DNA of 33,146 nt from Gemmataceae bacterium (GTDB lineage Bacteria; Planctomycetota; Planctomycetia; Gemmatales; Gemmataceae), in assembly GCA_009692005.1 (NCBI GenBank), contig SHZZ01000040.1, positions 1 to 33,146 on the forward strand, in the 5' to 3' direction. Within the stretch, counting starts at the first letter, position 1. Every line of letters starts with the position of its first letter. The notes under the pieces were generated by a model. The model ran no database searches, was not told the origin of the DNA, and saw nothing but the letters and a program-made list of their open reading frames with translations. A program made the position numbers and the translations under genes. Shown here one piece after another: positions 24,925-29,823 of this stretch.

Positions 24925-26217
24925 TCAGTTGACCCCCATGTACTTGAAGGGGAGGGGCCGGATCGATTCCTTTTCGCTGGGGACTTTGGCCGGCCAAACC
25001 ATTCGGCCAGTACCGGTGGTGGTTGGCTGATTGAAATGGAAGGGGGCCCCCTTGTAACTGGGGGGTAAGGGCAAGGAACCGTCTTTGGCCAAGTCGCCGA
25101 AGAACCAGCCGTAAGTGGATTCCTCCAGGCCCTGTTTTTTATGCGAAGTCAGAACTTCTTTCTTTCCTACCTTGGCCATGTAATCGACGATATCCTTGGT
25201 TGCCAGAGGTAAAAGCTGGTCGCCTTCCATTTTGCTAGCGTAAGTGTATTCTCCGGTAAACCCCTGGGTGTCTTCCGGGGTTTTCGCGCCTTTTTTTGTT
25301 CCTTCTTTGTCTTTTTTCTCGCGCACATAGCCCGGCTTGACAATCTTCAGCATGCGATAGGAAAATTCATCCCCATCCTTGTCTTCTTTGCCGGAGACAA
25401 AAACCGTCTGAACCCGCCTGAGGCTGCGTTTCATGGTCACATCCTTCAACCAATTGGGTAGTTTCCCCATGGTTTTCCCGGCCACAGTCGGGTTGATCGT
25501 CAGCCAGATGGCGGCAAGTTGCTTGGCCCCTTCCGGGTCTTGTGCGGTCATGGCTGTGAGGTAAGATGTCTTGGTTGTGGGGGGAGAAGCGATAAAGAAA
25601 TTGGCCGGTCTTCCCGGGGTGTATTCCACAACTTCGCAAGGCTGCCTGCGCCATTCACTGGCCATCCACAAGGCGCCCAGGGTGGCGCCTTCCCCAGCGC
25701 CGACCACCACCAAGTTCGAGGTGTTCGCTTCCAAAGAATCGTTACGGGCATCGAGGAAGCATTTGGCCGCTGCGATGTCGTTGACCAGATTGGGATAATA
25801 AGAGGATGTAAAATCCGTGTAAGAGATCTTTCTCGGCCTGTCGGTTTTCAGCGCCCCCGGAAGTTTCTTGTTGATTTCCGCTTCCCAGAACTTGCCAGAT
25901 ACTATCGTGCTTTTTCCGTGACCGCGAAAATCAAAGGTCAATACCGAGTGGCCTTCCTTCTGTAACGCCAGCGCCAGGCCTTCCCATTCTTTGGTGGTGC
26001 TGGATCCGCCTTTTTTATGCGTAAACCCATGCAGGCAAAGCACGGTCGGCAAATCCTTGCCCTTGGCGCCAGAGTAAAACTTCCCGGTAATTAGCACCCC
26101 ATCCGAGGTGGTGAAATTGACATCGACGCTTTCTGCCCGGGCGCTGGAAGGCATCGCCAGCCAGGCCAGGAAAAAGGTGGTAATGCTCAGAGAAATCCAG
26201 CGTAACTTCGCGATCAT
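24925..26217 (-). CDS. Exported alpha/beta-hydrolase-fold protein, probable pseudoenzyme
   Basis: A 430-residue protein with AGGA upstream of its ATG. A signal peptide is present (MIAKLRWISLSITTFFLAWL, cleavage after SARA). The alpha/beta-hydrolase core is clear: VLCLHGFTHKKGG (oxyanion-hole HG), VLTFDFRGHGKS, and the elbow VVVGAGEGATLGALW near residue 170. In the elbow the nucleophile position of GxSxG is Gly (GAGEG), so the usual Ser is absent. The C-terminal part is unlike common hydrolases and carries a Lys-rich insert (EKKDKEGTKKGAK). A non-catalytic or altered function is inferred. It converges on the isomerase-like gene and shares its terminator. A weak TTGCAA-16-TACTTT promoter lies just upstream. 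Confidence 0.85.
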   Translation of the reverse strand: MIAKLRWISLSITTFFLAWLAMPSSARAESVDVNFTTSDGVLITGKFYSGAKGKDLPTVLCLHGFTHKKGGSSTTKEWEGLALALQKEGHSVLTFDFRGHGKSTIVSGKFWEAEINKKLPGALKTDRPRKISYTDFTSSYYPNLVNDIAAAKCFLDARNDSLEANTSNLVVVGAGEGATLGALWMASEWRRQPCEVVEYTPGRPANFFIASPPTTKTSYLTAMTAQDPEGAKQLAAIWLTINPTVAGKTMGKLPNWLKDVTMKRSLRRVQTVFVSGKEDKDGDEFSYRMLKIVKPGYVREKKDKEGTKKGAKTPEDTQGFTGEYTYASKMEGDQLLPLATKDIVDYMAKVGKKEVLTSHKKQGLEESTYGWFFGDLAKDGSLPLPPSYKGAPFHFNQPTTTGTGRMVWPAKVPSEKESIRPLPFKYMGVN

Positions 26218-26312
26218 GGTGGCGTTCCTGTAGGCTAAAGTATCCTTTTACCAAAATATTGCAAAAGGAAAGGAACAGGCAAGAGGAAAGCGTAAGGAAA
26301 TGGGAAACTTGC

Positions 26313-26363
26313 GAAAAAAAACGCTCGTCCGCAGGGTCCGGGGAAAACCCAGCGAACAAGCGT
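26313..26363 (-). terminator. Strong terminator of the candidate ncRNA
   Basis: On the minus strand ACGCTTGTTCGC (26352-26363) pairs over 12 bp (two G-U) with GCGGACGAGCGT (26321-26332); an inner GGGT/ACCC pair extends the hairpin, and eight T follow (26313-26320). It stands upstream of the hydrolase gene and about 470 nt after the spoVG stop, so it must end some transcript in between. Confidence 0.85.
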
Positions 26364-26770
26364 TTTATCAGGAGGATTCCCAAGTCCTCCCTTTTTCAGC
26401 CTCTCTTGCCTGGTTTCTCCGAAGGCAACTCCCCAAGGTTTCAGTTTTCTTGGGTTACCTTGTTCCAGGGTTCGAGCAGACAGAAATTCTACGGAGCTTT
26501 TTGCTCCTGGTGAAGATGCAACTTGAGAGCAGTTTCAAGTCGGTCCGGGGCTTTTATCCCCGCGCTTACCGGACTCTTCACCGACGCCGGTTCAATCCTT
26601 TGGATTCCCCCTTTCCGTGTTGGAGCCCTGGCGCCAAAACGGGTACCTCACCCGTGCCTCTCCTTGTCAATCCGACAATGGCAAGGATATCTAAACATGC
26701 CTGAGAGGCGATTTCCACTGTACGGTTCAGTGAACTTGAATTATTTTTTCAGGCGTTTTTTCAATTTGGT
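26313..26770 (-). ncRNA. Candidate structured non-coding RNA, class unknown
   Basis: A stretch of about 450 nt between spoVG and the hydrolase-like gene has no plausible gene but many helices on the minus strand. Seen 5' to 3': a TTCACTG stem-loop, GCCTCT/AGAGGC (enclosing TTGTC/GACAA), ACGGGT/ACCCGT, AATCC/GGATT, a long-range GGTGAAGA/TCTTCACC pair enclosing GTCC-GGGG/CCCC-GGAC and ACTTGA/TCAAGT, then GGAGC/GCTCC, CCCAAG/CTTGGG, TTGCCT/AGGCAA, GGAGGA/TCCTCC, and finally the terminator at 26313-26363. The central part has some resemblance to RNase P (GGTGAAGAGTCCGGTAAG, GGAGCAA), but the universal RNase P ends are not seen. The 5' end is uncertain; TTGACC at about 26771-26776 could be a -35. 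Confidence 0.5.
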
Positions 26771-26831: not shown

Positions 26832-27341
26832 TTAGGCGGGTTTTGCCGGGGCGCTTTCTTCGGTGTTATAACCCCGATTGATTTCAGCTGCCGTTTCCGT
26901 GTAACTAACTGGCTCACCTTCCGGGTCCATATCGTCATAAGTGCAAACATACCCAGGCAATTTGGCCTTTTCCTTTTCCAGAAAAAACTCTTTCATCACC
27001 GCGTTTTGAATTAATTCCCTGCAAGAAGCATGAATCGGGTGAGCGATGTCGGCATGGAGTTTCGTGCGGCCGGAATTGTCGCGGCCGGCGCGGTTGTCAT
27101 AGAGCTTGCCACCGCATTGATTGCAGAAGTGCGCTTTCAGCTGATTTTTGTAACCGCATTTTGCGCAACGGTCCATCAACTTCCTGCTCGGCATGGCCAC
27201 GAACCAGCCACGGGCCCCCTCGATGATCTTCAAATCGCGCACCACGAATGCCTGATCCAGCGTGATCGAGCAAAATCCATACAGCCTTTCATTCTCTTGC
27301 CTTTCTTCCACCAGCTTGATGCGAACTTCCGTGATCTGCAT
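26832..27341 (-). CDS. spoVG: SpoVG-family protein with inserted zinc ribbon
   Basis: A 169-residue protein. The ATG at 27341 has AAGGAG 7 nt upstream and lies 16 nt after the ispE stop; the longer frame to 27467 overlaps ispE and is not needed. SpoVG proteins are small site-specific DNA/RNA-binding regulators of about 85-100 residues. The two conserved SpoVG halves are present: [10 protein letters not shown]...[15 protein letters not shown]...FVAMPSRK (1-54) and [18 protein letters not shown] (from 99). Between them sits a 45-residue insert with a C4 zinc ribbon, C59-x2-C62 and C73-x2-C76. A Ser/Thr/Glu-rich tail follows. The ispE-spoVG neighbourhood is also seen in Firmicutes. The insert may alter nucleic-acid binding; this is inference. 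Confidence 0.9.
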
Positions 27342-29429: not shown

Positions 29430-29820
29430 GGGGGCGAACTGGTTTCGACCGGGCTTACGGAAGTGCAAGCTGCGTGCCGTGGTTAATCGGAAGGCCACGC
29501 AAAAATCCGATTACAACTCAACTGCTGAACCGCAGTTTTCTATGGCTGTCTAATAATACGATAGCCGCGTGTCCGGGAGCTTAACCTGAGAGGTTCCGGC
29601 GCGCTCGTTAAATCAGGATCGCAGGGGTTAGAAGCCGCGCAAGCGGTTGCACCGGTGGCAATCCCCGCTAAACCTTACAACCGGTTAGTCCGCAGTGCCT
29701 TTGTTTGTTGAAGCCACGCGGATGAACAGGGCGGAGTAAGACCGCCAGATCGACGAGCTACGCACGTAGATGCCTGCATGGAAGGGCTTCGGGACGCGGG
29801 TTCGATTCCCGCCGCCTCCA
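29430..29820 (+). ncRNA. ssrA: Transfer-messenger RNA (tmRNA), tag AEPQFSMAV
   Basis: Rescues stalled ribosomes by acting as tRNA-Ala and then as mRNA. The 5' GGGGGCGAACTGGTTTCGAC and the 3' GGTTCGATTCCCGCCGCCTCCA are the universal tmRNA ends. They pair as a 7-bp acceptor stem with the G3-U70 pair that alanyl-tRNA synthetase needs; the CCA tail is not encoded (A73 is 29820). The tag frame starts at GCT 29524 and reads AEPQFSMAV, then two TAA stops (29551-29556). Other frames hit stops early or give no plausible tag. The four-pseudoknot region fits 29557-29760. The encoded one-piece length of 391 nt is typical. The tag ending Met-Ala-Val is unusual (see findings). The 3' end abuts an integrase gene. 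Confidence 0.97.
29800..29820 (+). other. Putative attachment site at ssrA 3' end
   Basis: Inferred from position: the 3' part of the tmRNA T-arm and acceptor is retained, and the element begins beyond it. The direct repeat expected at the other end is outside the window, so the exact core is unknown. Confidence 0.4.
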
Positions 29821-29823
29821 CTT

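Follow-up and report, generated by a model that had tools for sequence, protein, structure and literature searches.

Closest described RNAs and the locus downstream of spoVG

To our knowledge, few non-coding RNAs have been described in planctomycetes beyond the housekeeping set, and the accessible parts of the literature on planctomycete small RNAs and RNase P RNA contained nothing bearing on the locus reported here. OLE, GOLLD, ROOL, HEARO and raiA are orphan large structured RNAs of bacteria, and they share with the present RNA a length of hundreds of nucleotides, many covarying helices, a restriction to certain taxa and a function that is not evident from sequence. On the other hand, the present RNA has no Rfam match to any of them and belongs to another locus and taxon, and OLE, GOLLD and ROOL are larger. 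In Listeria, SpoVG binds RNA, including Rli31 in its C-rich loop, and Rli31, which is described as one long hairpin plus a terminator, is tied to SpoVG both genetically and physically (PMC4959528). Rli31 resembles the RNA described here in being a small RNA that has a C-rich loop and whose 3' end forms a terminator hairpin, whereas no homology between the two was seen and SpoVG is considered as a partner here from gene adjacency only.

The locus lies in the freshwater planctomycete Gemmataceae bacterium, in the spacer that separates spoVG from a hydrolase gene, on the minus strand of the window (the whole stretch of 33,146 nucleotides that was analysed). The structured RNA spans 26313-26690 and perhaps extends to 26734, and the RNA proper, from hairpin A to the terminator U-run, covers about 26314-26686, corresponding to approximately 370 nt (about 350-420 nt overall, and up to about 420 nt if an upstream 18-nt motif is transcribed). 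It is present as a single copy. The spacer had been predicted to hold no credible gene, and this agrees with our results: no reading frame on either strand is open in all genomes (window copy and sister genus), a Pfam search of the spacer gave no match, and the indels among homologues measure 1 and 4 nt, which are not triplets. Some sister-genus copies contain a 49-codon frame, and an antisense frame is open in three, but these frames are broken in other copies, and a small ORF was rejected since it is not kept in all of them. Together with the non-triplet indels and the compensatory changes described below, the broken frames make an unrecognised small protein gene, or a spacer that is foldable by chance, very improbable. 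Judged from covariation combined with the lack of a commonly open frame, the locus has the marks of a conserved structured non-coding RNA, and we take it as nearly certain that an RNA element of conserved structure, whatever its kind, is encoded there.

When the window was searched against 4227 Rfam families at the gathering threshold, no match was obtained at the locus, and a tmRNA elsewhere was the only match in the window. Permissive searches (E up to 10 at the locus and up to 5 for four homologues) gave nothing credible; the RNA family is absent from Rfam, in agreement with its predicted position outside the known classes. Separate canonical genes exist in the genome for tmRNA (RF00023; window 29430-29823), 6S RNA (RF00013; G000:C84:217202, 61 bits), bacterial SRP RNA (RF00169; G000:C58, 56 bits) and A-type RNase P RNA (RF00010; G000:C47, 262 bits), indicating that the locus RNA is none of these, and neither 6S nor SRP RNA gave a match at the locus. 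The original prediction had correctly set aside tmRNA, SRP and 6S RNA, while the partial resemblance to RNase P that it noted proved wrong. In the window copy, a helix enclosing two hairpins and followed by GGAGCAA recalls P10-P12 of type A RNase P RNA, but neither RNase P RNA nor a paralogue was matched at the locus at E up to 10, no obvious equivalent of the GGAGCAA hairpin was seen in the homologues of the sister genus, and the resemblance is superficial because a canonical RNase P RNA is encoded elsewhere in the genome. The tmRNA gene is on the plus strand, and a phage-type integrase gene (PF00589; 29855-31162, minus strand) lies 32 nt from its 3' end, making the tmRNA gene a possible attachment site of an integrated element.

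CsrB and RsmZ are similar to the locus RNA in length and in their strong terminator, and a CsrA sponge of this kind could be considered since the genome carries three csrA genes (G000 C14, C4 and C95; L099-L101) and the window copy contains 16 GGA motifs. However, GGA is not enriched (16 in the window copy against 12.3 in shuffled sequences; 5-6 in the sister genus against 7-8, at or below the shuffled level), which argues against a CsrA sponge despite the three csrA genes. We rejected this explanation as scarcely credible.

Fold, covariation and the terminator loop

The minus strand of the spacer folds with a minimum free energy of -172.9 kcal/mol, compared with a mean of -146.0 kcal/mol for shuffled sequences (z = -3.9), which bears out its predicted high degree of structure. 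The features are collected in Table 1. The 8-bp long-range pair foreseen between GGUGAAGA and UCUUCACC is real and forms the outer part of helix D, and the two hairpins said to be enclosed by it are present as D1 and D2. Sequence is also conserved among homologues in the loops of hairpins B, D2 and F and in one strand of stem E. CAGGCAAGAG, which follows stem E in the window copy (about 26400-26412, minus strand), is complementary to CTCTTGCCTG past the terminator (about 26276-26287, minus strand), and this complementarity was not seen in the sister genus.

Table 1. Positions of the RNA elements, flanking blocks and neighbouring genes in the window
Feature	Position	Strand	Basis or remark
spoVG with inserted zinc ribbon, upstream neighbour	26832-27341	-	Pfam SpoVG 5.6e-24, DZR 2.4e-6
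Conserved 18-nt 5' motif TTCACTGAACCGTACAGT	26717-26734	-	Possible promoter element or RNA 5' end
Hairpin A, CCUU...AAGG	26662-26686	-	Covarying upper stem, GUC/GAC versus GCA/UGC; R2 match 26509-26682; helix 1, compensatory changes
Hairpin B, ACGGGU-GAGGU-ACCCGU, loop consensus RNGGY	26639-26655	-	Helix 2; closing pair exchanges CG/UA forms
Helix C, 5' arm	26630-26636	-	Pairs with 26583-26589; GC/GU/AU/CG at one pair
Helix C, 3' arm	26583-26589	-	Partner of 26630-26636
Helix D outer, 5' arm GGUGAAGA	26575-26582	-	Helix 4; two-sided changes at 5/6 pairs, 100% paired
Helix D outer, 3' arm UCUUCACC	26509-26516	-	Partner of 26575-26582
Hairpin D1, GGGG-containing loop	26543-26574	-	Helix 5; two-sided changes at 7/10 pairs
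D1 loop GGGGA, with a probable kissing contact to the terminator loop	26557-26561	-	Pairing possible in 8/8 genomes; suggestive only
Hairpin D2, conserved loop CUGCU	26521-26540	-	Helix 6; two-sided changes at 3/6 pairs; loop common to 8/8 genomes
Small hairpin GGAGCAAAAAGCUCC	26493-26507	-	Sequence and minimum free energy; no obvious counterpart in aligned sister-genus homologues
Stem E, conserved internal-loop strand CCUUCRGAGA at 26416-26425	26409-26469	-	R1 model and alignment; weak covariation
Hairpin F, loop CUUGGGAA, consensus YYGGGAA	26371-26390	-	Weaker covariation
Intrinsic terminator hairpin, upper loop UCCCC at 26340-26344	26321-26363	-	-30.5 kcal/mol; stem covaries in homologues (helices 12 and 13)
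Terminator U-run, 8 T	26314-26321	-	Sequence; conserved in all homologues
Conserved block immediately beyond the terminator, GCAAG...CUCUUGCCUGUUC	26273-26312	-	Probable promoter/operator of the hydrolase gene
Alpha/beta hydrolase gene, downstream of the terminator	24925-26217	-	Pfam Abhydrolase_1

Covariation in relatives, which had been proposed as a check of the fold, is present, and compensatory base pairs occur in most helices. In the alignment of the sister genus only, a model of 13 helices including the pseudoknot comprises 82 pairs with 97.9% of the cells paired, and two-sided changes were observed at 9 pairs, a number that none of 500 shuffles equalled; when the structures were slid along the alignment, pairing fell to 33-53%. 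When the window copy was added for the 5' half by alignment through the covariance model R2 (see below), 22 of the 42 pairs showed two-sided compensatory changes (0/500 shuffles equal), a count that leans towards the structure because the alignment was fitted to it. The strongest covariation was found in outer helix D and the two hairpins inside it, and that of the 3' half (stems E and F) is weaker than that of the 5' half.

The strong rho-independent terminator with eight T that closed the predicted RNA is real, with a lower stem of 15 bp, then one mismatch and an upper stem of 6 bp beneath the UCCCC loop. A simple terminator scan missed it, so the silence of that scan elsewhere is not evidence. 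Pairing between loop GGGGN of D1 and loop N'CCCC of the terminator is possible in each of the eight genomes, and the fifth pair is CG in four, UA in two and UG in one of the sister-genus genomes and AU in the window. The probability of a 5-bp loop match by chance is about 0.01-0.07. Since the pseudoknot taken by itself is no better than its controls (76 of 500 shuffles), we grade the kissing contact between the two loops as probable, not proven.

Homologues in a sister genus

When the spacer was searched against 95 family genomes by plain nucleotide comparison, only short chance matches were returned, and the ten loci that were inspected looked coding. Homologous loci were reached through SpoVG and spoVG synteny, and in all seven genomes of a sister genus the RNA is present, flanked by spoVG and the same hydrolase gene. 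These genomes are MAGs such as UBA969, several of them from lake samples according to a pattern scan of named genomes, and their gene order, conserved blocks, terminator and downstream hydrolase are all as in the window. In a tree of ispE plus spoVG, the window genome joins the sister genus, next to g30, in which spoVG is directly followed by another gene.

Covariance model R1, made from stems E and F with the window copy included, gave strong scores in exactly the sister-genus genomes, its other matches being weak. Model R2 was built for the 5' half from sister-genus sequences only and left out the window copy, and it is therefore an independent test of homology; it recovered the window copy at full length (26509-26682) with 41.5 bits and E = 3.4e-11 in the window or 4.4e-9 genome-wide. 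In 347 genomes of the class, the family included, R2 gave a single further match, a weak one antisense to a cheW-like gene (G256/L098), which was rejected as due to chance. A third model, run on 38 selected genomes with laxer filters, added one match (G056, 15.6 bits, E 0.41). A weak model match in a DoxX-like gene region (G088/L079) was inspected and rejected, and a pattern match in Colwellia (L084) was not confirmed by R1. In viral contigs, a short piece of D1 had four exact matches and the pattern of the 5' motif had none.

Neither the other Gemmataceae (95 family genomes in all) nor about 250 further Planctomycetia yielded the RNA, and while spoVG and the hydrolase gene occur family-wide, the RNA was found in two sister genera only; a strongly diverged copy elsewhere could have been missed, since these searches scored just the top candidates from an initial pass over each genome. 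One record from the pattern scan, CAMDHK010000025.1 (L083), is a MAG titled Candidatus Kuenenia stuttgartiensis that carries the Gemmataceae ispE-spoVG-RNA-hydrolase locus; it is evidently misassigned and looks mislabelled or misbinned.

Transcript boundaries, neighbouring genes and possible roles

The conserved 18-nt motif lies 30 nt upstream of the RNA, and the pattern TTCANNNNANCGTACAGT has exactly one match per genome in all eight genomes, while the stretch from the motif to spoVG is not conserved. A helix between this motif and the stretch before hairpin A was predicted by alifold and was rejected, being broken in several homologues. Because the predicted pairing with downstream sequence is not maintained, the motif may be a promoter, and it is at least as likely to be a DNA element as the 5' end of the RNA.

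The main rival of a separate RNA is that the spacer forms a structured 3' UTR with the terminator of an ispE-spoVG operon, which stabilises or autoregulates the spoVG mRNA, for example by SpoVG binding to the 3' end of its own message. The RNA starts within about 100-150 nt of the spoVG stop codon on the same strand, no other terminator is visible in between, and ispE-spoVG synteny was found in nearly all loci examined. The claim that the terminator serves no other gene end nearby was not safe: since ispE and spoVG closely precede the RNA on its own strand and no run of at least five T is visible between the spoVG stop codon and the RNA, the terminator may end the ispE-spoVG operon too, and that it belongs to the RNA alone is unproven. 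However, the unique conserved motif and the unconserved stretch between it and spoVG look like an independent start, and the multi-helix fold exceeds the needs of a 3' end. We regard the 3' UTR explanation as rather unlikely.

On the downstream side, the RNA could be a long leader of the hydrolase gene, that is, a riboswitch or attenuator in which a ligand decides whether the terminator forms. Its terminator is located about 100 nt ahead of the start codon of the hydrolase gene, and this gene and the RNA are kept together in both genera. However, this linkage is confined to the two sister genera, hydrolase homologues are present family-wide, and upstream of those checked outside the two genera no covariance-model match was obtained, which argues against a leader. 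In addition, antiterminator pairing was not noticed, and a separately conserved, promoter-like block follows the terminator, so that this explanation appears quite improbable. At the nucleotide level the block matches the sister genus better than any other part of the spacer does (76-91% over 23-55 nt), and it is probably a promoter or operator of the hydrolase gene. Within it, GCAAG...CTCTTGCCTGTTC forms an inverted repeat with a promoter-like TTGCCT.

The dedicated, lineage-specific structured RNA that was originally proposed is thus supported by the lack of an Rfam match and by its conservation and covariation in relatives, and it is rather likely that the RNA acts as a separate non-coding RNA and not as a 3' UTR or leader. 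We suggest that it would be made from the minus strand downstream of spoVG, either as a segment or processing product of the ispE-spoVG transcript or from a promoter of its own, and would end at its own intrinsic terminator. The folded RNA would act in trans and would probably be protein-bound, and the GGGGN/N'CCCC loop contact may dock its 3' terminator hairpin onto hairpin D1. The most likely partner, put forward as a tentative and doubtful candidate, would be SpoVG, the product of the neighbouring gene; the RNA could sequester SpoVG, or SpoVG could stabilise the RNA. This link rests on adjacency only because SpoVG is present in 34 genera of the family against two for the RNA, and we know of no binding motif of SpoVG. 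The most specific reading, an undescribed class of large folded RNA in a freshwater Gemmataceae clade, with a terminator kissing an internal hairpin and an RNP formed with the zinc-ribbon SpoVG, is unlikely to hold in all its parts.

A single-copy complex RNA kept by compensatory change beside spoVG offers a testable entry to RNA-based regulation in planctomycetes, and, since little is known of the RNAs that SpoVG targets, it may provide a natural partner for this protein. The alignment of eight sequences is ready to use for this non-Rfam family. Finally, the SpoVG encoded here (window 26835-27341, minus strand) contains an inserted double zinc ribbon (Pfam DZR), unlike the short SpoVG proteins that are known from Firmicutes.
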